Positions 24,410 through 54,047 of a stretch of 64,000 nt of DNA are shown here, one piece after another (position 1 is the first letter of the stretch; every line of letters starts with the position of its first letter). The position numbers were made by a program, and so were the translations under genes. The stretch is from Heliocybe sulcata (Eukaryota > Basidiomycota > Agaricomycetes > Gloeophyllales > Gloeophyllaceae). The notes under the pieces are model-generated. The model searched no databases. It was not told where the DNA came from and worked only from the letters and a program-made list of their open reading frames with translations. The DNA is taken from NCBI GenBank assembly GCA_004369045.1, contig ML213532.1:62001-126000 (forward strand), in the 5' to 3' direction.

Positions 24410-25663
24410 TCAATGTGCTTGGAGAACCTCATTATCGAACAGAATGGCCAGCGCTCTCGATAAGCGGCCCCGCGATTCCCCGCCCCGCTGAGGCCGGTCG
24501 ACATCGACCGACCACGGAATCCAAGATTGACGACATCGAGGACCGGGACTACGTGCCATAGCCAAGCCGCCCTCCTTAGGTTCTGGCATCCAGTACGCGT
24601 CATCAGGGCCCTCTGATTTTGTCAGTTCGATGAGTTTGACGATACGGACGATGACGGTGCGGGTGCCCTTGTGCTCCGGCAGTGTAGAGCATTCAAACTG
24701 AACCAGAGCTCTCCCTGAGGATTATAAGGCTACTTCTAAGTCTTTCAGACTAAGAGCGGTCGGTAGCAACACACCTGTGAATGGCGTGCGATTGACTCTC
24801 TTGCTTATCCCAGTGCTTCCTGATTCGCAGACCCTGACCGAGAACAGACGCTGTAGATAAAGTCGTTCCGCCGTTGAGTTTCCTATAACCCAAAGATACA
24901 CATAGTGGCTCTGAAGGTCGATTAAAAATCTCTGTCCGAACTTCCAAATGAGAAGGCTGCCGGCGGCTGGACGGCGTATCTCTGGCCCGTGGGAACCAGA
25001 AATGTCCAGGGCAGTGTCCAGCACCTTTGCTGTTACCAGCTTCTCGGAGAGAAGATGTGCACGAAGACCAGAGTACTTTGACTCGCGAGCAATCTCGAAG
25101 AGCGACATGTGCCAAATTCGGCCGTCTGGCAGCTGCAAGTCCCGCCCGCTTGGAAAAGTAGCCGGGTCAGAGGATGTCGTGATGCGAAAGCGGACCTGCC
25201 CTGATAAAGGCGGCGCAGCCTTCTCGAGATGCCAGTAGAGGAATCCCTGAGCATCCATGGGGAATGGTATATTCTTTTGGAAATAGTGCAATTGAAGCCT
25301 AGGTTGTTCAGGTGCCATTGCAAAGCGCACAGTTTCCGTTATCCACCCAGTAAGATCAACAAAGTCTTCAGCGTCTAGTCGACTCTGATTCAGGGTACGC
25401 AGCAGCAGAGCTGAGGTACGGAGCCCGGCGGCGGTGGTAGTATGGATGTTTGACTTGGGAATACGCGGCTTGTCTTGATAAACGAGCGCCTTTGCCGCGG
25501 GTGCATACCGCTTTTGCATAAGAGTACTGTTTATAGATGGGAAATAGGGCAATAGCGTCTGCTGGCAGCTTGAAACATGGACGAGATGCCTCCTGTTGCG
25601 AACGTCTTGCCAATAACGAATCATCAGCTTCGAGGCACTGATTATGCCGCTCATAGGCGCCAT
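24410..25663 (-). CDS. U1: member of the tandem U family (unknown function)
   Basis: Two coding exons. Exon 1 starts MAPMSGIISASKLMIRYWQD and ends in the conserved TPFTG just before a short intron. Exon 2 continues GRALVQFECSTLPEHKGTR and MPEPKEGGLAMAR and ends LAILFDNEVLQAH with TGA at 24410. Family landmarks present: LLRTLNQSRLDAEDFVDL, GFLYWHLEKAAPPLSGQ, RFRITTSSDPATFPSGRDLQ and SLLIWKFGQRFLIDLQ. The protein is about 400 aa. This copy lacks the TGACGTCA/CACGTG upstream element of its relatives and is the most left-lying and diverged. The basic, Arg-rich first 60 residues could be a mitochondrial presequence, but that is only a guess. I do not recognise any catalytic motif. Confidence 0.72.
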
Positions 25664-26589
25664 CACCTCATAGAATCTGCGATCAGAGAATGACGCTCGA
25701 GAGGCCTGAGTATGTCCCTACGGTGAACGAGGCTCAGATTCAAAGCGCGAAGAGTCAGGCAGAGCCACAAGACACACTGAGGAAACATGCCGGAATTCAC
25801 AAAAATGTATGCCACGTGGGCACGGCTGTATCCGGTTTAAACTCGTGGCCTCCTGTGCGGGCATAGTTCTCTGCCACACCGGTGCCCGTCAAGGATTCGC
25901 GAACGCTCAGATCGTCCGGATGGCCTGCAAATCTAGAAAGAGAGGCCAAAACAACACAATAAGTTAGCGTAGTATACGACAGGGCTCGAGAAGGTCAATA
26001 ATTATGACACAACACATAGGGTCATGAAGATCAGCGGCAAGAGGGGATGTAATCCAGAGAAAGAGATCCCTTGCGTGCGCGGAAGTAAGTTCATCCATAT
26101 ATCAGCGGAGTATGATAAGTCTAGGAAAGGTGAGTTCGGTCAGATCGTGTACATGCCGTGAGCGTAAGCGAAGGTGGTATGTCAAGGGCCTTTCCACCCA
26201 GTGCTTCCCTTGACTCACCACGCTCACACTGCTCGCCGCGAGCGGGCTGCTCCTGTACACCGGCTTCCGCGTCCTAGGCGTAGCTCGATGGCGGGTAGTA
26301 CGAGGCGAGACATCCCGCACCGTACAGGCTGCCCGTTGTTGGTCATATCACGTTGGCGACGATGCCGCCCAAATCGACGTCGCTGGATGCTGCGATGACG
26401 GGATCGACGAGGCAGCCGTTGCCCGAGGGAGGGGGCTCAGACTGTTTTGTGAAGAACGCTTCCTGTTTCCTGCTGTGAGCGCACGATACTTGGGCGGGAG
26501 TCAGAACTGTCTCACCGCGCCGCGGGTGGGTCGTCGCGGTAGTCGTGCATCGGCAGCTCGTCGTCATCCTGGAAGTCTTCACCGGCGAG
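25664..26589. other. Intergenic stretch, nothing recognised
   Basis: The 5' flank of U1 and the sequence replacing the missing end of the SSP remnant. No domain is seen in frames such as 26174-26398 plus. Confidence 0.4.
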
Positions 26590-26815
26590 GGGCTGCGAGC
26601 CCGTGCTATTGGCGTCCGGCAAGGTTGTATTATACGCGGTGATCGTGAAGTTGCTCATGGTGTTGAATCGCTGCGCCACAGACCTGCACACGGAGACGTG
26701 GGATCTTGCGACGCGGAATAGGGCATTGCTGGTATACCTGACGCAAGGGCAGACAAAACGAACAACGAGGTCGGAGCTGCAGAAACAAAATGCAGAAGGC
26801 GCGAAGACCGTGACC
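26590..26815 (-). pseudogene. SSP family remnant (exon 1 only)
   Basis: Minus-strand pieces LFVLSALASGIPAMPYSA, PTSPCAGL and NFTITAYNTTLPDANSTG match exon 1 of SSP copy 1 (LLGVSALASGISAMPSSA, ASSCAGL, NFTITAYNTTLPNANSTG). The pieces lie in different frames, and exons 2 and 3 are missing; unrelated sequence begins near 26600. It is the left end of the 26620-27535 segmental duplicate, so it was probably truncated when that block was copied. Confidence 0.65.
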
Positions 26816-27535
26816 TAGTGTGATGCGCATTCACCGATTCATACTGATTCAATAGACGAGAGGTTGCCTTGCGCTACAAAATAGATGGTCTGAATCCCAT
26901 TTCATGAGAGTGTATGAGTACAGCAACACCCAACGAAGATGATCGCTTACCGAGGCATGCAACGATGATCTGTAGAGTCCGCCGGCTGCTCACTTCGGTT
27001 AGCCACAACCAGGACCACCCCGAAAGCGGGATAGAGATGTGAAAGGTTAGCTGTAAACGGAGCTAGATGCGTAGAAGTTCGCCGGAGAGGGCCAAGACTA
27101 GCCATTTAGTAGCGCCGGTACCCTTCTATACCTTCGATAGTGGACGGGTGATATCGATAACCAGTTGCAAACCTGAACAATGCTGCTAAAAGATCATGAC
27201 CTTCCTCTCGTGAGCTGAACTTGGTCAGCTTGATGACGACTAGAGAGACGCTGGTCCAGTTCAGTTTATAGATTATGTCCGAGCTGGGCGTGGCGCACGT
27301 GCAGTAGAGACACTGCCCACCGCAGTCCATACCGGCCAATGTAAGTGTGTACATCCAGCGTCGAAATAAAGCTCCAAGTACTCCATGGACAGGCGGCCTC
27401 TGATCTTGACGTGTCGGCGATTTCGTCAACTGGTCCAACTTGAATTGGTTCTAACTTCCGGAGTCACTACACGCAAATTGAAGCACAAGTGAAGCATAGA
27501 AGCGAAGAGGACAGGGCATTATCAGCTCCGGATCC
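26620..27535. repeat. Segmental duplication, right copy (partner about 14920-15845)
   Basis: SSP exon 1 and promoter flank followed by a W block, in the same order as at 14920-15845. In this copy the W block runs straight into the 3' end of U2, so the ancestral order was probably SSP - W - U. Confidence 0.6.
27110..27535 (-). repeat. W block, copy 2 (3' of U2)
   Basis: Contains AGATTATGTCCGAGCTGG, TTGACGTGTCGGCGATTTCG and a longer open minus-strand reading (27106-27438) with SSDIIYKLNWTSVSLVVIKL and SSREEGHDLLAALFRF. This is the least broken reading of the block and hints that W derives from an exon. Confidence 0.55.
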
Positions 27536-27551
27536 AACTCTTCCCACGAGG

Positions 27552-28792
27552 TCAACGTGCTTGATGAGCCTCATTATCGAACAGAATGGCCAGCGCTTTT
27601 GATGAGGAGCGCTGCGATTCACTCCACGACTGGGGCCCGTCGACATCAAACGACCACGGAGTCCAATGACGACGGGGTGTACGGGTCATAACCAAGCCGC
27701 CCTCCTTGGGTTCGGGCATCCCGGAGGCATCAAAGCCCTCTGACTTTGTCAAATCGATGAGCTTGACGATACGGAGGACGACGGTTCGGGTGCCCTTGTG
27801 CTCTGGTAGTGGCGAGCGTTCGAACTGAACCAGAGCTCTCCCTGGAGATTATAGAGCTGCTTGTAAGTCTCTCAAGCCAAGAACGGTTGTAGAAACATAC
27901 CTGTATATGGCCTGTTATAGATTCTCTTAGCGATTCCGGTGCTTCCGAATTGCTGGATCTGGACCGAGAACAGGTAGTGCAAGCGAAGCCGTTCTCCAGT
28001 TAAGTTTCCTATAATCCAAGGCACCACCTCAAGGCTTTGAAGATCCACAAGGAATCTCTGTCCGAACTTCCAAATAAGAAGGCTACCAGTGGCTGGATGG
28101 AGTATCTGCTTCCCGTGGGAGGCAGAAATGGTCATGGCAGCATACAACACCTTTGTGGTTACTAACGTCTCGGAGATAAGGTGCGCACGGAGCCCAGAGT
28201 ACGTTGACCGGCGAGCAATATCGAACAGCGATATATTCCACGTCCCGCCGTCTGGCAGCTGCAAGTCCCGCCCGTTTGGAAAGGTAGCCGGGTCGGAGGA
28301 TGTCGTGATGCGAAAGCGGACTTGGCCTGATAGGAGAGGTGCATCAGGGTCGAGGTGCCAGTAGAGAAATCCCCGAGAACCAGGAGGAAATCGTATTTTC
28401 CTAGGACCTAAGTTGAAATAGCGCATCTCAACGCTAGGTTGTTCAGGCGCCAGTGGAAAGCGCACATTTTTTGTTGCTCGCCCAGTAAAATCAAAAAAGT
28501 CTTCAGAATCTAGTCGAGTCTTGTCCAGGGTACGCAGTAGCGTGGCTGAGGTGCGGAGCCCTGCAGCGGTGGTAGCATGGATATTGGATTTGGGAAGGCG
28601 ATGTTCGTCTTGATGGACAAGCGCTTTCGCCGTGGATGCCCACCGCTTCTGCACGAGAGGATACGGGAAGTAGGATGATGACCTGTTCTGGCAGCCTTGA
28701 ACACAGACAAGATGCTTGCTGTTGCGAACGCCCCGCGCATGACGAAGCATCAGCTTCGACATGCTGATTATGCCGTTCATAAACGCCGCCAT
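27552..28792 (-). CDS. U2: member of the tandem U family
   Basis: Start MAAFMNGIISMSKLMLRHA, chosen because MxxxMNGIIsxSKL is the conserved start in all copies; an upstream frame (QQIHE) is the 3' edge of a leader exon. Exon 1 carries LLRTLDKTRLDSEDFFDF, GFLYWHLDPDAPLLSGQVRF, SSDPATFPNGRDLQLPDGG, GLRAHLISETLVTTKVLYA and SLLIWKFGQRFLVDLQ, and ends IYNRPYTG. After a roughly 60-nt intron, exon 2 has the conserved RALVQFERSPLPEHKGTR-type segment and SGMPEPKEGGLVMTRTPRR, and ends ILFDNEAHQAR with TGA at 27552. The upstream element with CACGTG and TGACGTCA is present. The protein is about 400 aa and looks intact. Confidence 0.78.
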
Positions 28793-28919
28793 TTCGTGAA
28801 TCTGCTGCGCGAGAGTGAGACTCGGGAGGACCACCTTATACTCGACGATAACGTACCGGCATAGGAGGATTTTCAGTGTCCGAAGTGCGAACCAACTTGC
28901 GTGGTCAGTTTGTCACGAA

Positions 28920-28965
28920 CACGTGAGCTTTGAGATGACGTCACGCGGCGGGATATCAGCGAAGA
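28920..28965 (-). promoter_or_regulatory. U2 upstream element: E-box plus CRE-like site
   Basis: CACGTG at 28920-28925 and the palindrome TGACGTCA at 28936-28943, followed by ACGCGGCGGGATATCAGCGA. The CRE site is 144 nt ahead of the U2 ATG. The same arrangement recurs ahead of other U genes. Confidence 0.65.
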
Positions 28966-29773
28966 TGTATTAGTCGCGCCTTTGGATTCAACTCGAAGCT
29001 TTCCTCGCTCGCGAGCAAGTGACTCTCTCTTCCTGGTCATCGATCAACATCCAACAAGAGCGGGACAACTGACCTCCATCGTTCAGCCTTAAGCCTCAGT
29101 TGTCTTCTTCCAGCTGGAGTCACGCGCCGCTCTCCCATAACTTACCGTACTTTCCTGCGGTCTACATCCTCCGAGTCTACATTACTGATACTATGTAGTG
29201 GGGGCCTGCCGATGTGAGGCCTGTCTCTATCTCTTGGATAACCTTTGAGAGCGAAGAGGTACTCCGGCTGCAAGTCCCAGAGAGAGCTCTCACAGTCAGC
29301 GGGCGTACCGTGAATGACTAGTGACTAGTGGTCTGCTTCGTTGGATGGAGTATTCACGCTCGAGATGGAGTATTCATGGTCGAGCTCGGTTCATACACCA
29401 CAGATAATAATCGAGAAGAACAGAAGGCTGGTGCTGTCGCTAAAGCGCTAAAGAGCTGCTCACCGGTCCGAGAGCGACTCTTCGCTTCCACCAGTCAACT
29501 CCGACTCTTACTATGTACCTATCCGTACTATGATACCCAACGATGCCACCACACGCGTCTTGTCTGACCCGAGCTTGTGATGCGACGTGGCCGCACGTGA
29601 TGTCACGCTGCCCACGCGACTCAGACGGGAGAGTCTCGGTGACTGCCGAGCCGCGCGATCGACGAATTGCCTCGCTTCGCGGTCTCAGACTTGCCGTCCA
29701 TCGCGCTGCCGCCGACCGACACAACCTCCTCAGGCAAGGCTGTCTCGGGTCGGCTGCCACACACAGTGACGGA
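28966..29773. other. Intergenic stretch, nothing recognised
   Basis: This lies between the divergent U2 and acidic-protein genes. No domain is seen. The long minus-strand frame 29440-30276 is an antisense shadow of the acidic gene. Confidence 0.4.
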
Positions 29774-31577: not shown

Positions 31578-32213
31578 GTACAGCTTACAGCTCACCTCGA
31601 GTGCGTATCTGACTCTACGATCGTAAGCTTCAGTAGCTCTTGGGAACTCTCTCTGTTCCTCGTACGTGTAAATGTTTATTTGTAATGGAATGATATGCTT
31701 CTGAGCAAACTGTCTATGTAATCGTTTGCTTGTAACTGTGATGCGTGCATTCCCTAAGTCACGTGAGAAATGATGTGACGGACGCGTTCGCCCGCGATTT
31801 GGCTACCCTCTTTCTTCTGAAGCGTCGACCGCTGGGATGGACCCCGGCGCTCCTCTCGACGACGACGACGGTGGTGGAGAGCAAGCTCCTCGGAGTGCTC
31901 TGCTGCGAGCGACGTCGCAATCTGAACTGACGTCGGGGAGAATCGTATCTGCACACGATTGGTTCCTTCTGGACGCGTCCTGGCTGGTGGCTGACCCAGG
32001 GTCCGTGCGCATTTATATCCAGACTGCCAGCCCCTCCTGGTGGGGATATAAACCCGCCTCTTGCGCCTCTCCTCCCCATCGACATCTCTTCTCTCTTCTC
32101 CTACCATCGAGCTAGCCTCAGCTTGTCTTCTACTCTATCACTTCATACACTCGCTCTTCTACATACCCTCTGTCGATCGCTACCACGACGTTCACTCTCT
32201 TACATCTACCATC
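31578..32213. promoter_or_regulatory. Upstream region of the coiled-coil gene
   Basis: Contains a CACGTG E-box at about 31760, two TATA-type sites (TTTATA at about 32012 and TATAAA at 32047-32052) and a pyrimidine-rich leader with TCTACCATC just before the ATG at 32214. The long leader of about 165 nt after the second TATA site is typical of a well-expressed fungal gene. No other gene is seen here. Confidence 0.4.
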
Positions 32214-33251
32214 ATGCCTTTTGCCAAGGAGACCCTCATATCCTTCCAGGCCAAAGCCGCCGACATCAACTTCCTCAAGCAGTCCTTTGTCGCTCGCGTC
32301 CTCAAGAAGGACGAACCTGCGCGTATTTCCCGAGCACCATCGTCCGAGCTCATTGTGTCGCCTCCTTCCGCTACCATCTCGCCTTCATCCTCCACCTCCT
32401 CCAGGCCGTCCACTCCGCCCTCGCCTCCTCGCCGCCACATCCCGCTCACCCCCGAGCACGTCAAGAAGCTATTCAAGACTAAGAAGCCGGCGCCCACCCT
32501 CCTCGAGTCCACTAGGGTCTCTACTCTTGGGGTAAAGCAGGTGCAGGGTATGATCGAAACTATGGCGAGGCAGCTGGTTGAGGCGAGGGCTACTACTGCG
32601 GAGAAGGACGGTGAAATCGAGAAGAGGGACGAGGAGTTGATGAAGCAGAGGATACAGTTCGTCCAGGAGATGCAGGCCGTCACCGACGACGAGCGTAAGA
32701 CGCACAGTGAGCAGCTTGCCCAGGAGAAGATTCAGTACGACGAAGATATGCGGGCTACCATTGACGAGAAGGACGCCCAGATTAAGAACCAGAACGACGA
32801 GCTCACCGCCGACCGCCTTCAGCTCCAGAGGTTGCAGACTCTCATCGCCGAGAAGGACGCCGCGATCAAGGACTGCAACGACCGGCTCGCCATGCAGAAG
32901 AACCAGTACGAGGAGAAGCTTCGCGCCATCGTTGAAGAGAAGGACGCAGAGATCCAGAGGCTCAACGACCAGCTCGCCGACGACCACACCCAGATTGAGA
33001 AGTTGCAGACGGTCGTCGCCGAGAAGGACACCGAGATCAAGGACCTGGACGCCTTCGCTGACGAGCTCGACACTGCCAACAATGACAAACAGACCACCAT
33101 CTACCGCCTCGAACTCGACCTCGAGGACCAGGGCACCATCATCGTCACCCAGGAGTCGCACATCCGGGACCAGGACGACCACATCGCAACCCTCACGCGC
33201 GCCCTAGAGCTCAACAAGATGCACTCGGAGGTGGAGCTGTTCTATAACTAA
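32214..33251 (+). CDS. Long coiled-coil protein of unknown function
   Basis: 345 codons in one exon, starting MPFAKETLISFQAKAADINF and ending ALELNKMHSEVELFYN. After about 65 residues comes a Ser/Pro linker (TSSRPSTPPSPPRR). From about residue 115 to the end the sequence is almost continuous coiled coil, with a repeated 28-34 residue theme: EKD.(E/A)I..(R/L)(D/N)(E/D)(Q/E)L...(R/T)(I/L)Q..Q. Examples are EKDGEIEKRDEELMKQRIQF, EKDAQIKNQNDELTADRLQL, EKDAEIQRLNDQLADDHTQI and EKDTEIKDLDAFADELDT. No catalytic or targeting motif is visible. Regular internal repeats suggest a rod-like structural or tethering protein. The start is the first ATG after two TATA-like sites and has an A at -3. Confidence 0.75.
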   Translation: MPFAKETLISFQAKAADINFLKQSFVARVLKKDEPARISRAPSSELIVSPPSATISPSSSTSSRPSTPPSPPRRHIPLTPEHVKKLFKTKKPAPTLLESTRVSTLGVKQVQGMIETMARQLVEARATTAEKDGEIEKRDEELMKQRIQFVQEMQAVTDDERKTHSEQLAQEKIQYDEDMRATIDEKDAQIKNQNDELTADRLQLQRLQTLIAEKDAAIKDCNDRLAMQKNQYEEKLRAIVEEKDAEIQRLNDQLADDHTQIEKLQTVVAEKDTEIKDLDAFADELDTANNDKQTTIYRLELDLEDQGTIIVTQESHIRDQDDHIATLTRALELNKMHSEVELFYN

Positions 33252-38134: not shown

Positions 38135-38325
38135 CACCGCAAGCTTCAAATCCTTCCAGATCCTTCCTCTCGCCCACAGGCGTGCATTTTACGTGCTTCC
38201 TATTCCGCACAATAAAGTGCGCGAATCAGCTCTCGATCTCCGTGCGTGTTTCGCTTCTGCACACCACGATGACAGTTGCGCCTTTCGTGTCGCCCGCCGC
38301 CACGCCCACCGAGTTTGAGATGCTG
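38135..38325 (-). pseudogene. Truncated 3' end of the HAD phosphatase gene, copy 1
   Basis: CCCACAGGCGTGCA, CACAATAAAGTGCGCG, CTCGATCTCCGTGCGTGT and TGCACACCACGATGACAGTTG match the last ~190 bp of the gene at 57762 (GTCTHT-like C-terminus AVCTSHTRRKIENCGAHYIV). It then breaks off into GCCCGAGCTGGATGTGACGG, which belongs to a W block. The same break is seen in copy 2, so both copies descend from one truncated ancestor. Confidence 0.7.
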
Positions 38326-38506: not shown

Positions 38507-40224
38507 TCAGCTCATGATCACGCCACTTGCATGAGAACCACTTGCCTGCATAGCATCATTATTGAACAGAATAGCCAGTGCATTCGCCGATGAGCCAACT
38601 GATTCACTCCCCCGCAGGAGCACGTCGACATCAACCGACCAGGGCCTCCAGCGATGACTACCGCGTGTACGTGTCATAATCAAGCCGCCCTCCTTGGGCT
38701 CAGGCATCCCAGAGGTGTCGTCGGAGCCTTCTGACTTTGTCAACTGGATGACCTCGACGATACGGAGGACAACGGTTCGGGTCCCGTAGTGTTCTGGTAA
38801 CGTCGAGCGTTCCAACTGAATCACAGCTCTCCCTGAACATTATGCGGCTGCTCGTAAGTATCTCAAGACAGGAAGAGCTGTTTCAGCACACCTGCGTATG
38901 GCATGTGAATGACAGTCTTGCCTGTCCCGTTGCTTCCCGATTCGCGGTCCTGGACCGAGAATAGGCCCCGCAAGTGAAGCACTTCTGCCTCTGAGCTTCC
39001 TATAATCCAAACCGACAGAATGGCACTCCGGAAATCCACAGGAAATCCCTGTCCAAATTTGCAGATAAGAAGGCTGTCGGCGGCTATCTTTTCCCTATTA
39101 CGGTTGGAAATGTTCAGCGCAGTATTCAGGGCCTGCGCCGTCACCAACTTCTCGGAGAAAAGGTGAGCACAGAGTCCGGAGTACTTGGACCCGCGAGCTA
39201 TCTCGAAGAGGGATATGTTCCAAGTCCGACCGTCTGGTAGCTGCAAGTCTCGCCCACTTGGAAAGGTAGCTGGGTCAGAGGATGAGGTGGTGCGAAAGCG
39301 GAGCTGACCCGATAGACAGGGTGCATCAGGGTCAATATTCCAGTAGAGGAATCCCTGAGAATCCGGAGGGAATGGTGTATTGCGACCACGTGAGTAGAAG
39401 TAGCGCATTTCAATGCTAGGTTCTTCAGGTGCCATTAGAAAGCGTGCAGATTTCGTTACTCTCCCAGCAAAATCAACGAAATCTCCAGCGTCTACTCGGG
39501 TCGGGTCCAGGGTACGTAGTAGCAGGACTGGGCGTGTGCGACGGCGGACGGCGGCGGGAGCAGGATTGTTCAGGGCTGCATCCAGCAGCTTTTCTGTTAT
39601 TAACTCCTCATAGAGAAGATGCGCACGAAGACCAGAGTATTTTGATGCGCGAGCGATGCGGGAGAGCGGTATATTCCAAGTCCCGCCGTCTGGCAGCTGC
39701 AAATCCCGCCCACCTGGAAAGGTAGCCGGATCGGAGGATGTCGTGGTGCGAAAGCGGACCTGCCCTGATACAGGTGGAGCATCCGGTTCAAGATGCCAGT
39801 AGAAGAATCCCTGAGAATGCAGAGGGAATGGTATATATTTGTGACCTGACTTGATATAAAGCATGGCGAAGGTAGGTTCCTCAGGTGCCGCTGGAGAGCG
39901 CGCAAATTTCGTTACTTGCCCAGTAATATCAACAAAGTCTTCAGCAGCTAGCCGTGTCTGGTCAAGGGTCCGCAGTAGCAGGCCTGGGCGTCGGTCGGCG
40001 GCGGTAGCAGGTATGTCGGACTTGGGAAGAAGCTGCTGGTCTTCGTCAACGAGCGTTTTCGCAGCAGATATCCACCGCTTCTGCGCAGTAGTGTTGTTTA
40101 TACATCGGCGATAGAACGATATCAGCTTGTTCTGGCAGCATGCAGCATGGAGGAGACGCCTGGTGTTGGGAACGTCTCGCCAATGACGAAGCATCAGCTT
40201 CGAGGCGTTGATTATGCCTTTCAT
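38507..40224 (-). CDS. U3: U-family member with an internally duplicated domain
   Basis: Start MKGIINASKLMLRHWRDVPN at 40224. The conserved region occurs twice in one open exon. The first copy is LLLRTLDQTRLAAEDFVD, GFFYWHLEPDAPPVSGQVRF, SSDPATFPGGRDLQLPDGG and GLRAHLLYEELITEKLLDAA. The second is LLLRTLDPTRVDAGDFVD, GFLYWNIDPDAPCLSGQLRF, SSDPATFPSGRDLQLPDGR and GLCAHLFSEKLVTAQALNTA. It then continues with the single C-terminal part (CKFGQGFPVDF, VWIIGSSEAE) to MPYAG. After the short intron, exon 2 gives RAVIQLERSTLPEHYGTRTV and SGMPEPKEGGLIMTRTRGSH, and ends ASGVIMS with TGA at 38507. The protein is about 550 aa against about 400 aa for the other copies. Upstream it has CACGTG and a TGATGTCA variant of the CRE site. 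Confidence 0.77.
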
Positions 40225-40400: not shown

Positions 40401-40938
40401 AACGGTGAGGATGTCAGAAAGTCGGATGTAAGATGGTCTTTCTACGTTCACTACTTATGCATAAGACTTGTCAGCCCACCTTTCAATGCAAATACTGGCA
40501 CTCTAGCGAATGGGCCATTGCAGCACTAAGCTCTTGCGCAAGCCTGTGGTCTCTTCAAAGTGCGCATATTTTCTTCCATTCGACGTACTTACTGCAGTCC
40601 ATGGTTGGGAAAGATAGCGTCTCGAAAGGACAGTGGCGGCCAGCGCGCTGCACCCGGACATGCTACATCTAACTCTGCAAGTCACTGTCGAACTTGGTCA
40701 TCGCGTAAATCAGAACAACGCACACCGATCTCGTATACTTTCTAGAGAACAACCTCTGCCCGCTGGTCTTATTATACAGTATACTACGATCTCATCCATC
40801 GCGTCCACTATATAGGGTACGTCTTCCAGGCACATAGTACACTATGGGCCTGCATGGTGCGAGACAAGCTGCACAATAACAAGCATCCGAGGGAAGAGAA
40901 CCGGGCATAGCAGCCCGCTAGTCAGCACCTTGGCGGGC
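40401..40938. other. Intergenic stretch, nothing recognised
   Basis: Separates the U3 promoter from the orphan U fragment. No domain or repeat is recognised. Confidence 0.4.
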
Positions 40939-41131
40939 TCAACGTGCTCGATGAGTCTCATTATCGAACAGAATAGCCAGCGCTCTCGCTGACGGGCCGA
41001 GTGCTTCACTGCCGGGCAGAAGCCGGTCGACATCAACCGACCACGGTGCCCAATGACGATGGACTCTACGCGTCATCACCAAGCTTCCCTCCTTAGGCTC
41101 TGGCATCCCATGGGCCTCATCAGGGCCCTCT
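40939..41131 (-). pseudogene. Orphan C-terminal exon piece of a U gene
   Basis: Minus-strand GMPEPKEGSLVMTRRVHRHW, APWSVDVDRLLPGSEALG and LAILFDNETHRAR are a clear U-family C-terminus, nearly identical to that of U4. The homology stops abruptly at about 41131, just before KSEGPDEAHG. The sequence beyond matches the stretch at about 49085-49290 near V3. The rest of the U gene is missing. Confidence 0.75.
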
Positions 41132-41700
41132 GACTTTGGGTGGCAGAAGGGGCGAAGGCAGCAACACAGGAACCGCTCACGAGCGAGGGGCACTAGTACC
41201 AGATCTACCAGCCAACCTTCCAGCCTCGATGCGCTCCACTGTGAGATGGCCGGGCACTCTGTCCAGCTGACCGCCGATGAGGAACACACCAACCTTTCAC
41301 AAGTGACAAGATCGGGCGGATCGAGGAATTGCAAACCTCAACAATGCTGCTAAAAGATGATGACCTTCCTCTCGTGAGCTGAACTTCGTTAGCTCGACGA
41401 CGACAGGAGGGACGGCTAGTCCAGTTCAGTTTATATATCATATCCGAGCTGGGTGTGGCGCACGCGCAGTCGAGACGACCCCCAGCGCCGTCCATACCGG
41501 CCAATGTAAGTGTGTGTGTACATCCAGCGCCGAAATAAGTCTCCAACTATTCCATGGACATGCGGCCTCGGGTCTTGACGTGACGCCGATTTCGTCAGCT
41601 GGTCCGAGTTGTATTGGTTCTAACTTCCGGAGTCACTACATGCAAATGAAAGCCAATATAAGCATAGAAGCGAAGAGGAAAGGCCATATCAGCTCATGAT
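41132..41700 (-). repeat. V-edge fragment plus W block, copy 3 (3' of U4)
   Basis: 41132-41334 (GGTGGCAGAAGGGGCGAAGG, CCAGATCTACCAGCCAAC, ACAAGTGACAAGATCGGGCG) matches 49085-49285. 41335-41700 is a W block with CTGCTAAAAGATGATGACCT, CATATCCGAGCTGGGTG and ATGGACATGCGGCCTCGGGT. Identical order at 49085-49660 shows that the two stretches were copied as one unit. Confidence 0.65.
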
Positions 41701-42956
41701 TCAACCCCTTCCGCGAGATCCACCTGCGTGGTCATCCTCATTATCGAACAGAATAGCGAGCGCTCTCGCTAATGGGCCGGTTGCTTCACTGCCCCGCTGA
41801 GGCCGATCAACATCAACCGACCACGGTGCCCAATGACGATGGACTCTACGCGTCATCACCAAGCTTCCTTCCTTAGGCTCTGGCATCCCAGAGGCCTCAT
41901 CAGGGTCCTCTGACTTTGCCAATTCGATGAGTTTGACGATACGGAGGACGACGGTTCGGGTGCCCTTGTGCTCCGGTAATGTCGAACGCTCGAACTGAAC
42001 CAGAGCTCTCCCTGAAGATTACAGGGCCGCTCGTAAGTATCTCAGGACAAGAACGGTTCTGGCAACGCACCTGCGAATGGCATGTGATTGACTACCTTGC
42101 TTATCCCATTGCCTCCTGATTCGTGGATTTTGATCGAGAACAGGCATCGAAGGGAAAGCTTTTCTCCCGCTGAGCTTCCTATAATCCAAAGGTACATCTT
42201 CTGGCTTCGAAGATCCACAAGAAATGTCTGTCCGAACTTCCAAATAAGAAGGCTGCCGGTGGCGGGATGGATTGTCCTTGCCCCGTACGGCGCAAAAATG
42301 CTCAGGGCAGTATACAGCACCTTTGCCGTTACCAATTTCTCGGAGACAAGACACACGCGGATCCCAGAGTACTGTGATCGGCGAGCAATGTCGAAGAGCG
42401 ATATATTCCAGGTCGCGCCGTCTGGCAGCTGCAAGTCCCGCCCGTTTGGAAAGGTAGCCGGGTCGGAGGATGTCGTGACGCGAAAGCGGACTTGGCCTGA
42501 TAGGAGCGGCGCATCAGGGTCGAGGTGCCAGTAGAGAAATCCTTGAGAATCAGGAGGGAATCGTTTTGTCTTAGGACCTAAGTTGAAATAGCGTATCTTA
42601 ACGCTAGGTTGTTCAGGCGCCACTGGAAAGCGTACATCTTTCGTTACCCGCCCAGTAAGATCGATAAATTCTTCAGCATTTAGTAGGGTCTTGTCCAGGG
42701 TACGCAGTAGCAGAGCTGAGGTGTGGACCCCTGCAGCTGTGGTAGCATGGATGTTGGACTGGGGAAGACGATGTTTATCTTGATAGACGAGCCCCTTCGC
42801 CCCAGATACCCACCGCTTCTGCCCAAGAGTATTGGATGTAGATGGCAGGCCGGCCAATAACCTGTTCTTCCCACGGCCTGAAACATTGCCAACATCTCTC
42901 CAATGACGAAGCGTCAGTTTCGATGCGTTGATTATTCCGTTCATATGCGCCGCCAT
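41701..42956 (-). CDS. U4: member of the tandem U family
   Basis: Start MAAHMNGIINASKLTLRHWR at 42956. Landmarks: LLRTLDKTLLNAEEFIDLTG, VRFPVAPEQPSVKIRYFN, GFLYWHLDPDAPLLSGQVRF, SSDPATFPNGRDLQLPDGA, LFDIARRSQYSGIRVCLVSE and SLLIWKFGQTFLVDLRS; exon 1 ends MPFAG. After the short intron come RALVQFERSTLPEHKGTRTV and SGMPEPKEGSLVMTRRVHRH, ending DHAGGSRGRG with TGA at 41701. The protein is about 400 aa and looks intact. U4, U7 and the orphan piece share the SKSEDPDEA/KSEGPDEA type of sequence ahead of GMPEPK, so they are close relatives. Confidence 0.78.
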
Positions 42957-43389: not shown

Positions 43390-45735
43390 GCGGAAATATC
43401 ATTGGAAGAACAGGGTTCGCAACCTACCGCCTTCCGCCGCCTGTCAACACAGTCACCCTCGACAACCGGCTTACCTGCCACCCGTAACTTAAGGAATGCG
43501 CCTACGAAGTTGCAGGAAGCACGCGAAGGCTGGAAGGTCATTGGGTTGCCCAGTTCAGACCATTGTGTGTGGAAGAGGAGGATTGACAAGAAGAGCGGGA
43601 GTGCTCGTAGTCAGACAAGGAACAGATATCACGGAGACCACATACCTGAATATGGCGAACGGCTACCTCCGAACTTCCCTCGATGCCTTGTCCTGACGTA
43701 TCAGAAGTCGGTTCATGGTGAGCAGTCTAGCAACATAACAGCAGGCCGCCAGCAGAGCAGAATCCATGCCGCGCCTGGTCAGCGAAGGTCCGCAAGCATC
43801 CTGGTATTGAGTAGAAGGTCTGATGTCCAGTGATGCACCGGGAGCAACAGGACGCGAGACCGAAGCTGACACGGGGGACACGGAACCTAACATACAGAAG
43901 ACACGTCTTCGCGTCCAAGTCGATCCTTCATACGCCGTACCTAAATCCGTGTGACACGGCAGAGAATACGACAAGACGGAAATAGTGATAGACGGCCATT
44001 CTGAAATGATGCTCACGATGCTCCTCAGCAACAGGCACCAATGGTCCAAGCCAGATTGTCTTTTCCGCGTATCCACGACAGCAGTATATTCAGGATAACC
44101 GCATGCAAGTGCCTGTACTGACGGGTGGTCAGACACTGCGGTTGTTGTTCGCGCCGCCGACTGACGCTATCTTTATGCTGAGTACCGCGAGTAGAACGAC
44201 TGAGCTGCAAAGGACGCACTTGTAAAACAGACTTGGGATCGCTGTAAGAGATGAGCGATACTACAGTCGAGAGTGGGAGCGTCTGTAGTCAGACAAGGAG
44301 CAGATATCACAGAGACTGCATACCTGATCATCACGGACGTGCACTTCCAAACTTCCAACACCCTTCTCGATCCGTTGTCGTGAGGCATCGGAAGCCGACA
44401 CATGCTGACGAGACTGAACGCGCACCTATCGAGTCCAGAGGATGCCCTCGATCCAGCCCACTGAGATATCAGAAGCCAATCTGTGTAAACGGCCTTCTAG
44501 TGTGACAATAGGGCGGATGTGAGTGCCCAACTCTATGCTGCCCACGATTGAGATACTCGGCTGTCTCCTGTGAAGGCCAGAACCACGTAGCTGGACAAGG
44601 AGGGCGGTAGTCACCAAGTACACCCGATCTGCAGCCGCTGGAAAAAGATCCGTAGGTCTCCAGTCCGAATAAAATACCGTCTATCCACCGCACTGGTACC
44701 TGGTGATCGAACTCGGTTGAGTTCGAAGACAGGAAGCAATACGATAGCATTCAGATTGTTCGACTTGCGACACGCCTAGGAGACTCACGGTCTTGATTCA
44801 AGGCAGAGCAAAGACGCGTAGCTTGAGGACAAGATTCATCATAGGCAGTATACTCAATAGAGACAAAGAGCCAACGGAACTATCCTGGCTCCGCGGATGG
44901 TCCAATGTCGCGAGGGGAAGAAACAGTATTAGTCGGTATCTGCGGATATCTTGCGCGACGCGAAGTGGAGCGCCAGGATGGGCAAGGATAGTAAAAAAGG
45001 CGTACGCAGCAGCTAACAATGTTACGAACGGAAGGACGCCCAGAACCACCAACTACTCCTCCAAAGTCGAGACACGCTCCACTGCGAGAGAGAAGCTTGA
45101 GAACGGCCGACACTCGCAGTGGATCCTCTGTCTAGCTGACCCGAGACGAGGAAGACGCGCAACCCCTCCCCATGTGGCAAGATCGAGCAGATCAAGTAAA
45201 GCTATCGGCTCGAGGTGAGAACGCTGCGGGGTCGTCCGTAGGTAGAGCGAGACGAGGTCGTCGCCGGCGGAGTGTAGCCTTAGATCTGGGCATTATATTG
45301 CAGCATATATACGGCATATGCAGTAGGTAGTTATTCCCTAAGTGACAGTGACGGGAAGAGCGGACCAGTTCATAGCGTTGTTGAGGCCGACATGGTGGCG
45401 AGAGGCACGGAAGAAGCGGAGCACCTGCCTCGCCATGTCTCAAGCCATTGCTTGCTCAGCGCTCAGCGCTCAATGCTTGCTTATACATTTGGACTTCGCA
45501 AGAATGCAAAGTGTTCCATCTAGTACCATCTCGTGGTCATATTCTAGGTACAAGTGCTACGCGTGTCGGGAAGACAAGGCGAGACGTGAGGGCAATAACC
45601 AGGCGTATCATGCTAAGGCTGCAATGCAGGTGGAAAGCGACGATGCCGCGTGGGGCGAGTACAAGATAGGGAAAAAGAGTCATGTTAATAATAGAGAAGA
45701 GAGAAAAGACGAGCACCCGATCATAGATACACCGC
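43390..45735 (-). repeat. V2: degraded member of the V repeat/gene family
   Basis: Minus-strand coding traces: RQPSISIVGSIELGTHIRP, EGRLHRLASDISVGWIEG, and a hydrophobic exon VVLGVLPFVTLLAAAYAFFT near 45000. The same peptides recur with changes in V3-V5. The copy contains frames broken in several places. Its left edge has TACTGACGGGTGGTCAGAC, matching the GGATGGTAAGAC edge of the other copies. Its right edge (AAAGAGTCATGTTAATA) is alignable with the sequence between V5 and the HAD gene. Confidence 0.5.
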
Positions 45736-45910
45736 GAACATAAGCTTTATATCCTTCCCCTCACCTACAGGCGTAAACTTCACGCTGCTCCCTATTAACT
45801 ATTCTCCACAATACAGTGTGTGTCGCAGTTCTCAACCTCCCTGCGTGTGTGGCTCGTGCACACCGCGATGACTTTCACGCCTCTCGCGACGTCCGCGGGG
45901 ACGCCCTCCG
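45736..45910 (-). pseudogene. Truncated 3' end of the HAD phosphatase gene, copy 2
   Basis: CCTACAGGCGTAAACTTCAC, TATTCTCCACAATACAGTG, GTGTGGCTCGTGCACACCGC and GATGACTTTCACGCC match the C-terminal coding end of the gene at 57762. Homology ends at GCCCGAGCTGGATG, the same junction as copy 1. It lies between V2 and U5, as expected if a HAD(3')-V-U block was duplicated. Confidence 0.72.
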
Positions 45911-46140
45911 AATTCTATATGATGCCCGAGCTGGATGCGGCGGCCGTGATAGACATCCAATCCATCCGATGCGCGTGCGATGGGTGGTCTTGACCTCATG
46001 ACGAATTTCTCAAATGGCGCCAAGTTCGAGTGGGTCTAATTTCTTCGATTACTTATATACGCGAAGAAATCAATCAGAAGAGGAGCATAAGAGCGAAGAA
46101 AAGCGGACATACCAGGCCACTAGTTAGCATTTTCGCGAAC
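45911..46140 (-). repeat. Partial W block (3' of U5)
   Basis: GAGCTGGATGCGGCGGCCGT, GGTCTTGACCTCATGACGAA and TTTCTCAAATGGCGCC form a shortened, diverged W block joined to the HAD remnant. Confidence 0.5.
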
Positions 46141-47377
46141 TCACTGTGGTTGATGAGCTTCATTATCAAATAGAATGCTCAATGCTTTCGAAAGCGAGTG
46201 CGGTTCACCCCTCGGCTGGGGCCGGTCGACATCAACCGACCACGGAGTCCAACGACGACCGGGCGTACGCGTCATAACTAAGCCGCCCTCCTTGGGTTCT
46301 GGCATGCGGGAGGCATCAGAGCCCTCTGACTTTGTGAAATCAATGAGCTTGACGATACGGAGGACGACGGTTCGGGTGCCCTTGTGCTCCGGTAGCGTCG
46401 AGCGTTCGAACTGAATCAGAGCTCTCCCTGAATATTATAGGGGGGGTGTAGGTATCCAACAAGACGAACAGTTGTAGCAACACACCTGTGTATGGCCTGT
46501 GATAGACACTCTTGACTATACCGGTGCTTCCCCATTCAGAGGCCCTGACCGAGAACAGGTTCTGCAAGCGAAGCCGTTCTCCAGCTAAGCTTCCTATGAT
46601 CCAAGGCTCCATATCACCGCTTTGAAGATCCACAAGAAATCTCTGTCCGAAGCTCCAAATAAGAAGGCTGCCGGTGGCTGGATGGATTCTCCTTGCCCCT
46701 TCCCGGCCAGTGATGTTCAGGGCAGTATACAGCACCTTTGCCGTTACCAAATTCTCGCAGATAAAATGTGCACGGAGCCCAGAGTACCTTGACCGGCGAG
46801 CAATATCGAAGAGCGATATGTTCCAAGTCCCGCCGTCTGGTCGCTGCAAGTCCCTTCCGCTTGCAAAGGTAGCCGGATCGGAGTGTGTCGTGATGCGAAA
46901 GCGGACTTGCCCTGATAAAAGCGGCGCATCAGGGTCGAGGTGCCAGTAGAGAAATCCCTGAGCATCCGGAGGGAATGGTATTTTCTTAGGACCCAAGTCG
47001 AAATAGCGCATTTGAAGCCTAGGTTGTTCAGGTGCCAGTGGAAAGCGCACATCCTTCCTTATCCGCCCATTCAGATGAACAAAGTCTTCGACATCAAGTC
47101 GTGTCTGGTCCAGGGTACGCAATTGCAGGGCTAATCGTGGGCGGCGCTCAGCAGTGGTAGCAGGGATGTCGGATTGGGGAAGACGATGTTGGCCGTGATA
47201 TACGAGTGCTTTCGCCGCAGACGCGCAACGATTCTGCCCAAGAGTATTGTTTGTAGACGAGAGGCAGGGCGATGACCTAACGTTCTGATAGCCCGGACGC
47301 TTTCTGTTGCAAACATCTCGCCAATGACGAAGCATCAGCTTCGAGACACTGATTACGCCGTTCATAGACACCGTCAT
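46141..47377 (-). CDS. U5: member of the tandem U family
   Basis: Start MTVSMNGVISVSKLMLRHWR at 47377. Landmarks: LQLRTLDQTRLDVEDFVHLN, VRFPLAPEQPRLQMRYFD, GFLYWHLDPDAPLLSGQVRF, HSDPATFASGRDLQRPDGG and SLLIWSFGQRFLVDLQS; exon 1 ends YHRPYTG. Splicing a short GTGTGT...TTCAG intron joins RALIQFERSTLPEHKGTRTV and SRMPEPKEGGLVMTRTPGRR, ending LSILFDNEAHQPQ with TGA at 46141. Without splicing, the frame runs on to 46340, which I do not accept because the conserved C-terminus is in another frame. The protein is about 395 aa and looks intact. Confidence 0.77.
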
Positions 47378-49285: not shown

Positions 49286-49640
49286 ACAAACCTCAACAAT
49301 GCTGCTAAAAGATCATGACCTTCCTCTCGTGAGCTGAACTTGGTCAGCTTGACGATGACTGGAGAGACGCTAGTCCAGTTGAGTTTATAGATTATATCCG
49401 AGCTGGATGTCGCGCACGCGCAGTCGAGACGATCCCAGCGCCGTCCATACCGGCCAATGCAAGTGTGTACATCCAGTGCCGAAATAAATCTCCAACTATT
49501 CCATGGACATGCGGCCTCGGGTCTTGACGTGACGGCGAGTTCGTCCGAGTCGACTGGTCCAGCTTGAATTGGTCCTAACTTCCGGAGTCACTACATGCAA
49601 ATCAAAGCACAATATAAGCATAGAAGCGAAAAGGACAGGG
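49286..49640 (-). repeat. W block, copy 4 (3' of U6)
   Basis: CTGCTAAAAGATCATGACCT, TTATATCCGAGCTGGATG, ATGGACATGCGGCCTCGGGT and TTGACGTGACGGCGA, in the same order as the copies near U2, U4 and U7. Confidence 0.65.
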
Positions 49641-49644
49641 CATA

Positions 49645-50915
49645 TCAGCTCATGTTTGAACCTCTTCCGAGAGATCCACTTGTGTGCTCAGCCTCATTAT
49701 CGAACAGAATCGCCAGCGCTCTCGCTAATGGGCCGGTTGCTTCACTGCCCCGCTGCGGCCGATCGACATCAACCGACCACGGAGCCCAATGACGACGGAC
49801 TCTACGCGTCATAGCCAAGCTTCCCTCCTTGGGTTCTGCCATCCCGGAGGCATCAAAGCCCTCTGTCTTTGTCAAATCGATGAGCTTGACGATACGGACA
49901 ACGACGGTTCGGGCACCCTTGTGCTCCGGCAGAGTCGAGCGTTCGAACTGAACCAGAGCTCTCCCTGGAGATTATAGAGCTGCTCGTAAATAGCCCATGC
50001 CAAGGACAATTGTATACCCATACCTGCATATGGCCTGCAATAGATGCTCTTAAAGGTTCCGGTGGTTCTCGATTCACGGACCTTGACCGATAACAGGTTC
50101 TGCAAGCGAAGCCGTTCTCCAGCTAAGCTTCCTATAATCCAAAGCATCAAAGCGGGGCTTTGAAGATCCACAAGAAATGTCTGTCCGAACTTCCAAATGA
50201 GAACACTACCGGTGGCTGGATGGAGTATCTGCTTCCCGTGGGAGGCAGAAATGGTCAGGGCAGCATACAACACCTTGGCGGTTACTAACTTCTCGGAGAT
50301 AAGGTATGCACGGAGCCCAGAGTACCGTGACAAGCGAGCGATATCGAAGAGCGATATATTCCATGTCCTGCCGTCTGGCAGCTGCAAGTCCCGCCCGTTT
50401 GGAAAGATAGCCGGGTCGGAGGATGTCGTGATGCGAAAGCGGACTTGGCCTGATAGGGGCGGCGCATCCGGGTCGAGATGCCAGTACAGGAACCCCTGAG
50501 CATCCGGAGGGAACGGTACAGTGTTCCCACCTGGTCCGAAATAGCGCATTGAAAGCCCAGGTTGTTCAGGTGCCACTGGAAAGCGCACAAATTTGTTCAC
50601 TCGTCCACTAAGATCAACAAAGTCCTCAGCATCTAGTCGGGTCTGGTTCAGAGTGCGTAATAGTATGGCTGAGTTTCTGCGGAGCCCTGCAGCGGTGATA
50701 GCACGGATGTTGGACTGGGGGAGGCGATGTTTGTCTTGATAGACGAGCCCTTTCGGCCCAGATTGCCACCGCTTCTGCATAAGAGTATTGTTTGCAGATG
50801 AGAGGCAGGGCGAGAACCTGTTCTGGTAGCCCGGACGCTTTTTGTTGCAAACATCTCGCCAACGACGAAGCGTCAGTTTCGACGCGTTGATTATTCCGTT
50901 CATAGGTGCCGCCAT
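49645..50915 (-). CDS. U6: member of the tandem U family (best-resolved copy)
   Basis: Start MAAPMNGIINASKLTLRRWR at 50915. A single 59-nt intron at 49965-50023 (GTATGG...CTCCAG) joins CRPYAG to GRALVQFERSTLPEHKGARTV in frame, giving 403 aa. Landmarks in order: KRWQSGPKGLVYQDKHRLPQ (residue ~45), LLRTLNQTRLDAEDFVDLSG (~85), VRFPVAPEQPGLSMRYFG (~110), GFLYWHLDPDAPPLSGQVRF (~140), SSDPAIFPNGRDLQLPDGR (~165), LFDIARLSRYSGLRAYLISE (~190), SVLIWKFGQTFLVDLQS (~235), LWIIGSLAGERLRLQN (~255), PEPKEGSLAMTRRVRRHW (~350) and LAILFDNEAEH (~385). The first 50 residues are rich in Arg/Lys and Ser. No known fold or active site is recognisable, and there are no membrane spans. Confidence 0.8.
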
Positions 50916-51042
50916 TTTGTAAATCTGCTGCGCGAGAATGTGACTCGGGAGGACAGCCTTATACCCGACGATAACATACCGGCGTAGGGAGATTTTCAGA
51001 GTTCGAAGTGCGAACCAACTTGCGCGGTGAGTTTGTCACGGT

Positions 51043-51095
51043 CACGTGACGTCGAACGATATCCAAGACGTCATGCGACGGGATATCAGCGAAGA
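51043..51095 (-). promoter_or_regulatory. U6 upstream element: E-box plus CRE-like variant
   Basis: CACGTG at 51043-51048 and AGACGTCA at 51066-51073, 151 nt ahead of the U6 ATG, followed by TGCGACGGGATATCAGCGAA, almost the same as at U7. Confidence 0.6.
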
Positions 51096-52435
51096 TATAA
51101 TCGAATTTTTTACTATGCTCACTACTGATCATGAGCACTACTGAGTACTTATTTGTAGTCCAAGGAAGAGCCAGTACCAGTCCTAAGGCCTAAGGCCTAG
51201 AGAGCCAGTCTCCTGTTACTGTAAGTCTGCAAACGATCTGTGCGTACAGATCAAGCCTAATGTGAACTCTTTCTAGAAAACGATTTCTGTCCGTATGAGC
51301 TGACAGATGTCGGTACTAATACATACGATCGCTTGCGTGGCATTCAATTGCACTGTAAGTGCATAATATCCCCTGTGCTATGATACTGTTCAACACAGTA
51401 ATATTTATGTTACCTCAAGAACGGGGCTCGTAAACTACCGCCTTCCGTGGCCTCTCGGCACATTTACCCTCCATCACTGCACGAGATCTCGACCCTGTCT
51501 CGCCTGCCATCCAACATTTGAGGAATGCCCTTGCGGGGTTGCAGATCAAGGAGACACGCGGGCCCGTACTGACGGATGGTAAGACACCGCGGTTTATTGT
51601 TTGGGTCGCTGACTGACGTTACAGTATCTTCGTGCAGAGTAGCAGAACGAGACTTTAGGCTTGCGCTTGCGGAATCAAAAACCAATTTAGGATCGGCGTA
51701 CAAGAAGAGAGACACTGCAGTCGAGAGCGGGAGCGCCCGTAGTCAGACAAGGAGCGGGTATCGCACGTTCGCGAACGTGTACTTCCGAACTTCCAACACC
51801 CTTGTCGATCGGTCGTCTTGACACGTCGAAGTTAATCCGCTCTGAGCAGTCTTACGGCGGGATGACGGACTCTAACACGTTCCTGTGTCACATCCTCAAC
51901 GACGGTCTGTATGAGGCATAACAGCATCTTCGCTGTTCAGCCACGGCTTCGGACTGGGCAGTGCATTCAAGAGAAAATGAAGTACAATCGCTGCGCTGTG
52001 GCACACTAGACTGACCACGCACCTTACGAGTACGGAGGACACCGCAATGCAGCCTCCTGACTTGTCAGAAGTCAATCAGTGAAGGCGGCCGTAATATGAC
52101 AACAGGGCCGACGTGAGTGCCCAACTCTACCCCGGCCACAATCGTGATATTCGGCTGTCTCGCGCGAAGGCGAGAACCATGGGCTGCGACGATCGAACTC
52201 GGTTTGAGATCGAAGGCAGGCAGCAATACGATGGCATTCAAATCGTTGGACTTGCGACAAGCCGTACTCAACCTCCTTCTAGAGCCACTCCAGACGAATT
52301 TTGAGTTTCAATTGGAGGGAGGCTGCCATGTGACGATAGGATGGCAGAAAAGTGGGCTACTTGTCGCTGCTGCCTTCATTGCGTCGCTTCCGAAAGACAG
52401 GACCAGACAGTGGCAACCCGAGCTTTGTAGGCGTT
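51096..52435 (-). repeat. V4: shortened, degraded V unit with its left spacer
   Basis: The part from 51096 to about 51390 is the spacer type also seen beside U4 and U7 (GATTTCTGTCCGTATGAGCT). From 51390 the unit matches other V copies: GTACTGACGGATGGTAAGAC, ACACGTTCCTGTGTCACATC and minus traces NDLNAIVLLPAFDLKPSSI and RQPNITIVAGVELGTHVGP. This copy is about half the length of V2 and V5 and lacks the HAD-proximal half. Confidence 0.5.
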
Positions 52436-52782
52436 CAATAGTGGACGGGTGATAACCATCCAGCGAACCTCAGCGTTGGTACAAGTACCTTCACATTGTC
52501 AGCACGACAACGACTCGAGAGACACTAGTTTAGTCCGGATTATCTTCGAGCGGAACGGTTCCAAGTGCACGTCCATACCAGCCATGTAAGCGGGTATCAT
52601 TATCCGAGCGCCGAAATAAATCTCCGAGTATTCCATGGACATGCGGCCTCGGGTCTCGACGTGACGGCGATTTCGTCAACTGGTCCAACTTGAATTGGTT
52701 CTAAGTTCCGGAGTCACTACATGCAAATCAAAGCACAAGATAAGCATAGAAGCGAAGAGGACAGGGCATATCAGCTCATGTT
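52436..52782 (-). repeat. W block, copy 5 (3' of U7)
   Basis: Shortened at its start but with ATGGACATGCGGCCTCGGGT, CGACGTGACGGCGATTTCGT, TCCGGAGTCACTACATGCAA and GGGCATATCAGCTCATGTTT in the standard order. Confidence 0.6.
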
Positions 52783-54047
52783 TCAACCCCTTCCGCGAGA
52801 TCCACCGGTGTGCTCAGCTTCATTATCGAACAGAATGGCCAGCGCTCTGGATGAGGGGCCCGGTGATTCGCTCCCCGGCTGAGGCCGATCGACATCAACC
52901 GACCACGGAGTCCAATGACGACCGGGCTTACGCATCATAACCAAGTCGCCCTTCTTGGGCTCCGGCATCCCGAAGGCCTCATCAGGGTCCTCTGACTTTG
53001 TCAATTCGATGATTTTGACGATACGGAGGACGACGGTTCGGGTGCCCTTGTGCTCCGGTAGTGTCGAGCGTTCGAACTGGACCAGAGTTCTCCCTGAAGA
53101 TTATAGGGCCGCTCGTAAGTCTTTCAGGCCAAAAACGCTTGTAGGAACATACCTGTGTATGGCGTGTGCTTGACTCTCTTGCTTACCCCATTACTTCCCG
53201 ATTCGCGAACCCGGATCGAGAACAGGTGCTGGACATGAAACCGTTCTGCCACAAAGCTTCCTATAACCCAAAGATGCAAATGGATGCTTCCAAGATCCGC
53301 AAGAAATGTTTGTCCGAATTTCCAAATGAAAATGCTAACAGTGGCTGGATGGAGTATCTCCTTCCCGTTGGAGGCAGAAATAGTCAGGGCAGAATACAAC
53401 ACCTTGGCGGTTACTAACTTCTCGCAGATAAGATAAACCCGGAGCCCAGAGTATGCTGATCGGCGAGCAATGTTGAAGAGCGATATATTCCAGGTCCCGC
53501 CGTCTGGCAGCTGCAGGTCCCGCCCATTTGGAAAGGTAGCCGGGTCGGAGGATGTCGTGATGCGAAAGCGGACTTGACCTGATAGGGGCGGCGCATCAGG
53601 GTCGAGATGCCAGTAGAGGAATCCCTGAGCATCCAGAGGGAATGGTATATTATTTTGGAAATAGCGCAATTGAAGCGTAGGTTGTTCGGGTGCCATTGGA
53701 AAGCGCACATTTTTCCTTGCTGGCCCAGTAAGATCAGCAAAGTCTCCAGCATCCAGTCGAGTCTTGTCCAGGGTACGCAGTAGCAGAGTTGAGGTGCGGA
53801 GCACTGCAGCTGTGGTAGCCTGGATGTTGGACTGGGGAAGACGATGTCTGTCTTGATAGACGAGCCCCTTCGTCCCAGATACCCACCGCTTCTGCACAAC
53901 AGTATTGGATGTAGATGGCAGGTAGGGCGATAACCTGTTCTCGCCGCGGACTGAAACAGAGACGAGATGCTTGCTGTTGCCAACATCTCTCCAATGACGA
54001 AGCGTCAGTTTCGATGCGTTGATTATTCCGTTCGTAGGTGCCGCCAT
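52783..54047 (-). CDS. U7: member of the tandem U family
   Basis: Start MAAPTNGIINASKLTLRHWR at 54047. A leader exon upstream probably ends near 54109, followed by a GTAAGT...CGCGCAG intron in the 5' region. The coding intron at 53094-53152 is 59 nt, as in U6, and the product is 401 aa. Landmarks: LLRTLDKTRLDAGDFADLTG, VRFPMAPEQPTLQLRYFQ, GFLYWHLDPDAPPLSGQVRF, SSDPATFPNGRDLQLPDGG, IFIWKFGQTFLADLGS, RVLVQFERSTLPEHKGTRTV and GMPEPKKGDLVMMRKPGRHW, ending HTGGSRGRG with TGA at 52783. It is intact by eye. It lies nearest the parent HAD gene and carries a full E-box/CRE pair. Confidence 0.8.

Follow-up and report, generated by a model that had tools for sequence, protein, structure and literature searches.

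Lineage-expanded tandem orphan families of fungi grow by birth and death, lie in clusters that include relics, and encode proteins with no annotated domain. The clusters of restorer-of-fertility-like pentatricopeptide repeat (PPR) genes of plants are described in the excerpted text of PMC5138203 as nuclear paralogs that encode tandem-repeat proteins, grow by local duplication and have their products in mitochondria. Here we describe an array of seven paralogous genes, U1–U7, in the basidiomycete Heliocybe sulcata, and establish their gene structure, their duplication history, the constraint acting on them, the size of the family to which they belong and the repetition of its core module. The window analyzed is a stretch of 64,000 nt, positions 62001–126000 of contig ML213532.1 (C30 in the contig numbering used here), in a genome assembly of 31.6 Mb and 51 contigs. 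Like the fungal orphan families, the U family appears to grow by birth and death, has relics in its cluster and lacks an annotated domain; it differs from them in that a presequence-like N-terminus is followed, within a conserved frame, by a varying number of modules, and in that co-copied fragments of a HAD-type hydrolase gene give the array an internal neutral control. With the PPR clusters it has in common the clustered nuclear paralogs, the tandem-repeat proteins and the growth by local duplication, the mitochondrial part being for the U genes a matter of prediction. The repeats also differ in size, since the excerpt gives 35 aa for PPR, whereas the module of the U family is of ~140 aa and the repeat unit including its spacer of ~167 aa.

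The first-pass annotation of the window, made from the letters alone, had described seven minus-strand paralogs with a common layout and a single coding intron. All seven are present (Table 1), clustered within 30 kb, and both the layout and the single intron hold for each of them, the intron measuring 58–60 nt where 59 nt had been given for U6 and U7. Every intron is of the form GT...CAG and lies in phase 1. The intron lengths vary modulo 3, and yet splicing restores the frame in all seven genes, which makes it very likely that the introns are real. Starts were set at the first in-frame ATG and are putative; they correspond to the highest coordinate of each gene in Table 1. After splicing, each gene is one open frame with zero internal stops (7/7), and the proteins are 59–74% identical in pairwise comparison when the first module of U3 is excluded. 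U3 is longer than the other genes because its core module is present in two tandem copies. The best blastn match for each of the 21 pairs shows 69.9–82.5% identity over 1.0–2.4 kb with E below 1e-100, and the likeness among the genes is not due to chance.

Table 1. Positions of the U genes, their modules and relic, and of the co-copied neighboring sequence, in window coordinates
Feature	Position	Strand	Exon 1	Intron	Exon 2	Product or content
U1	24410..25663	-	24775-25663	24715-24774 (60 nt)	24410-24714	397 aa, one module
U2	27552..28792	-	27901-28792	27842-27900 (59 nt)	27552-27841	393 aa, one module
U3	38507..40224	-	38892-40224	38833-38891 (59 nt)	38507-38832	552 aa
U3 modules, two	39562-39981 and 39106-39525	-				
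U4	41701..42956	-	42071-42956	42012-42070 (59 nt)	41701-42011	398 aa, one module
U5	46141..47377	-	46486-47377	46428-46485 (58 nt)	46141-46427	392 aa, one module
U6	49645..50915	-	50024-50915	49965-50023 (59 nt)	49645-49964	403 aa, one module
U7	52783..54047	-	53153-54047	53094-53152 (59 nt)	52783-53093	401 aa, one module
Relic of further copy, between U3 and U4	40933-41138	-				part of C-terminal exon only
Decayed HAD 3'-end copy, directly downstream of U3	38154..38306	-				57% identity over 51 aa
Decayed HAD 3'-end copy, directly downstream of U5	45724..45914	-				separate pieces: 63% over 38 aa, 70% over 20 aa
Spacer X, between HAD gene and U7, including end of HAD frame	55305..57939					
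HAD-type hydrolase gene	57762..58856	-				open 364-aa frame, HAD_2 E 1.5e-11; 3' end copied together with U genes

To place the array within the genome, one U protein was searched across the assembly and gave 113 matches. These matches, with further places from added searches and merged by a 900-base rule, form at least 54 loci on 8 of the 51 contigs, broken loci counted in (C30 20, C7 12, C44 8, C6 6, C19 4, C4 2, C14 1, C27 1); one of them, C7:7293-11497, is possibly two genes. The count is a lower bound because scoring was confined to the best candidates of each search. Several loci sit towards contig ends, and a search for the telomere pattern, made to check for subtelomeric placement, gave no match in the assembly.

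The layout common to the family is a basic N-terminus, one to six copies of the module, a linker, the intron and a C-terminal part encoded by exon 2. When four part-models were applied to the genome stretches examined (the module model being built on seven of the eight window modules, as the pattern missed that of U5), the matches grouped into 45 chains. By reading, 25 of these hold N-terminus, module(s), linker and exon 2 complete and in order, spread over no more than two frames. Of the remaining 20, some have no recognizable N-terminus, some run off the end of a stretch, and others are partial or broken. Module numbers of 1, 2, 3 and 5 were observed among the complete chains. At C30:185282 a six-module frame is open over 1223 aa with its exon 2 split, and six module matches each, known as matches only, are found at C30:197500 and C30:209669. 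In one locus of C6 (L043; 2326-5368, plus strand, of C6:449001-459000), the whole unit of module, linker, intron and exon 2 occurs three times in succession, apparently in one gene. The exon boundary of divergent members was set from homology, and it coincides with a frame change or stops in L042, L044, L047 and L049 and with a short in-frame insert in L048. In a module tree in which many branches are weak, 37 modules come from multi-module frames, and their nearest relative lies in another gene for 30 of them and in the same gene for 7, so that whole genes have been copied as well as modules. We also considered whether exon 2 is itself a diverged copy of the module, which was not supported, as the local profile–profile score of 10.7 is lower than the 19.5 reached by the best among 60 column-shuffled controls.

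The first-pass annotation had further proposed that the U genes are intact and under selection while the DNA around them is degraded, and both parts are supported. Ratios of nonsynonymous to synonymous substitution (dN/dS, Nei-Gojobori, excluding the first module of U3) lie between 0.42 and 0.62 in all 21 pairs, with a mean of 0.48 and no pair near 1, and the frames are open. Pooled by part, the ratio is 0.57 for the N-terminus, 0.37 for the module, 0.67 for the linker and 0.40 for exon 2. Neutral evolution was simulated with a transition bias taken from the spacers (kappa 3.31, five chosen spacer pairs) in 60 runs at each of the total distances 0.15, 0.3 and 0.4, and gave mean ratios of 0.81, 0.79 and 0.79, respectively, with 5% points of 0.58, 0.66 and 0.62; the lowest ratio in any one run was 0.48, 0.60 and 0.51. 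The same simulated copies acquired on average 2.9, 5.0 and 5.9 stops, and only 4, 0 and 0 of the 60 runs were free of them. Across 15 pairs (U3 excluded), gap runs that are not in threes number 5 of 60 in exons, 10 of 10 in introns and 58 of 80 in flanks, and in spacers they number 25 of 28. The co-copied HAD and spacer pieces are broken. Taken as a whole, the U set is constrained.

These broken pieces also bear on how the array arose. The U genes have flanks in common, and the 3' end of the HAD-type hydrolase gene that lies beyond U7 recurs as decayed copies within the array. Decayed pieces of spacer X are found in the U2-U3, U4-U5, U5-U6 and U6-U7 intervals, and HAD 3'-end pieces also adjoin plus-strand relatives at C30:133613 and C30:152764. 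Past its first ~62-66 nt, spacer X is confined to C30 among the matches listed, save for one 94-nt match on C7. The simplest history that would account for these sequences is repeated duplication of a block consisting of the HAD 3' end, the spacer and a U gene, with an inverted arm at ~C30:130-155 kb; while the HAD and spacer pieces of these blocks have broken, the U frames in the same blocks are open. Two further observations concern this region. The start of spacer X (55305-55366) is a short dispersed repeat of ~62 nt that occurs in at least 28 places outside C30 at 85-100% identity. In addition, 14872-15849 and 26600-27538 are ~1 kb flank copies of 68% identity, so that a flank of the U2 block lies at 15 kb with no adjoining U gene.

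The N-termini differ in composition from the modules that follow. Over their first 60 residues, 31 N-termini average 1.55 acidic and 9.90 basic positions; per 60 residues of module the averages are 6.04 and 7.00 (63 modules). Of these 31, 29 begin with Met and are longer than 60 residues, and in 24 of the 29 the motif [QRP][KR]Rxx S occurs at residues 36-60; this placement is reached in 0.7% of shuffles, and the motif is found once in 8709 module residues. In an alignment of seven rows that share 37-40% identity with the first of them, an arginine followed two to four residues on by a serine stands at about the place of the motif in six of the seven rows; three rows of this alignment have incomplete N-termini. 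The excerpt of PMC7723863 gives R-2 and R-3 cleavage rules, with the processing peptidase cutting two residues after arginine in the former, and the N-terminal motif, judged by sequence, fits the R-2 rule as it is worded there. The mean hydrophobic moment of the N-termini is 0.56 against 0.42 in shuffles, and we regard this amphipathicity as weak evidence for a presequence. Composition and motif fit a presequence, and the U proteins are probably imported into mitochondria.

The view of the first-pass annotation that the proteins belong to no recognized family agrees with our searches of Pfam, NCBIfam and PDB sequences, which gave no significant match. A Pfam search of the frames at E up to 1 returned only Nitr_red_assoc (E 0.22, one frame), and a Pfam search with seven members returned a single A2M match (E 0.067, 1/7); both were taken as chance. 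Six members gave no family in Pfam and none in NCBIfam, and two profiles gave nothing among PDB chains at E up to 10. A transposon-encoded protein, which would have spoken against an ordinary gene family, was also looked for: the Pfam searches found no domain of a transposase, a reverse transcriptase or any other element protein in the U proteins, and no match to PPR models. Literature searches aimed at such a family either found none or gave, among the papers listed, mostly work on mitochondrial genomes, and beyond these searches we do not claim its absence from print. Similar "hypothetical proteins" may occur in other mushroom genomes.

On balance, it is probable that U1–U7 are functional nuclear genes of a strongly expanded family that lies outside the libraries used, in which a mitochondrial presequence, one or more modules, a linker and a C-terminal part follow one another and which has grown by birth and death. 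In this explanation the N-terminal presequence would direct import into mitochondria and be cut near residue 47-55, leaving one or more ~140-aa modules, the linker and the C-terminal part encoded by the second exon. The local array would have grown by repeated segmental duplication, tandem with one arm inverted, of the HAD 3' end, spacer and U gene together, with decay of the co-copied pieces and selection preserving the U frames. At other loci, duplication of modules inside genes, up to six per frame, would have given a birth-and-death family of variable valency. The module may bind a ligand, protein or RNA within the mitochondrion, in which case extra modules and paralogs would widen or strengthen binding. 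That the module is a binding unit is a possible, tentative reading, proposed because it alone repeats in frame while the N-terminus and C-terminal part are usually single. It is rather unlikely, though suggested by analogy with plant restorer genes, that the variable-valency modules of such an imported nuclear family follow a mitochondrial target that changes or is selfish, in an arms race of birth and death.

Several results weigh against this explanation. Single pairs such as U2-U6 (0.62) fall inside the simulated neutral range, and the case for constraint therefore rests on the whole set together with the open frames. The spacer pieces that align best, picked because they could be aligned, have a mismatch of 0.209, and the exon values (0.209 and 0.172) are no lower; mismatch is 0.281 in introns and 0.312 and 0.344 in the 150-base flanks. 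Recent copies pool to a ratio of nonsynonymous to synonymous differences (pN/pS) of 0.57 in 29 disjoint module pairs and again of 0.57 in 19 disjoint exon-2 pairs. The constraint on the U genes is thus moderate, and several relatives are broken or partial. Over their first 40 residues, only 9 of 29 copies are amphipathic at the 5% level when taken singly. The structure prediction that the first-pass annotation had proposed did not help, as two AlphaFold2 predictions from shallow, window-only alignments reached a mean predicted local distance difference test score (pLDDT) of 35.3 and 37.3 and gave no usable model. No relative was found in prokaryote genomes, in viral contigs (two profiles) or in phages, collections that are not meant for fungi and carry no information on other fungi.

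The moderate ratios, the pooled value of 0.57 for recent pairs and broken relatives such as those at C7:195386 and C30:145288 and the relic between U3 and U4 would fit a dying array, its copies freed from constraint, open by chance and owing their low dN/dS to an earlier gene that was functional. Simulated neutral copies, however, average 2.9, 5.0 and 5.9 stops even before frameshifts are considered, whereas U1–U7 have none, and 55 of 60 exon gaps are in threes; we consider such decay quite unlikely. A self-spreading gene, whether encoded by a transposon or otherwise selfish, might explain the high copy number on eight contigs, and a Plavaka transposase lies nearby (16901-18688). That origin is very improbable, since the U proteins have no transposon domain, the window holds no inverted repeats of at least 80 nt, and the copies share flanks with pieces of an unrelated gene, as in segmental duplications.

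A different question is whether the family is real but its basic N-terminus is not a presequence, serving instead, for example, nucleic-acid binding or nuclear entry, with the proteins acting elsewhere in the cell. The spacers between repeated modules are, by eye, basic as well, and 20 of 29 N-termini taken singly are not significantly amphipathic, both of which suit this alternative. Against it, the N-terminus is poor in acidic residues, and in 24 of 29 copies a motif resembling a cleavage site stands at a constant distance from the start; an R-x(-x)-S version of this motif occurs in six of seven members of the divergent alignment. We find it doubtful, if less so than decay or selfish spread, and continue to favor mitochondrial import of a functional family.

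The remainder of the window contains features of other kinds. To the left of the array, two exons at 5206-6620 (+) match class-II DAHP synthase (E 5e-23 and 2.4e-08) and represent an ordinary biosynthetic gene, and an 890-aa open frame at 8301-10973 (+) lies in DNA that is rich in GC and contains short tandem repeats, where only a sub-threshold Yae1_N match (E 0.0057) was obtained. The Plavaka transposase is a 595-aa open frame on the minus strand (E 1.1e-89) with 39 matching pieces genome-wide; Plavaka elements together with short introns are suggestive of a basidiomycete that forms mushrooms. Between U2 and U3, a 399-aa open frame (32052-33251, +) belongs to no Pfam family above the cut-off, has one weak coiled-coil match and by eye resembles a coiled-coil protein; four other copies of 78-88% identity are found on C20 (two), C30 and C16. 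At the right-hand end, 61364-62225 and 63049-63989 form a direct repeat of 78% identity over 948 nt, a 75-nt piece of which also matches 14851-14925; the open frames tried in this repeat gave no Pfam family. No tRNA or Rfam family was found in the window.

At least 54 loci in a genome of 31.6 Mb, for a module that is absent from the libraries used, amount to a sizeable annotation gap. The co-copied HAD fragments provide a control for decay that is internal to the very duplications that produced the U genes. To our knowledge, a large nuclear family with a changing number of modules in mitochondria would be unusual for a fungus, and if the predicted import is true, nuclear–mitochondrial conflict would become testable in this organism.

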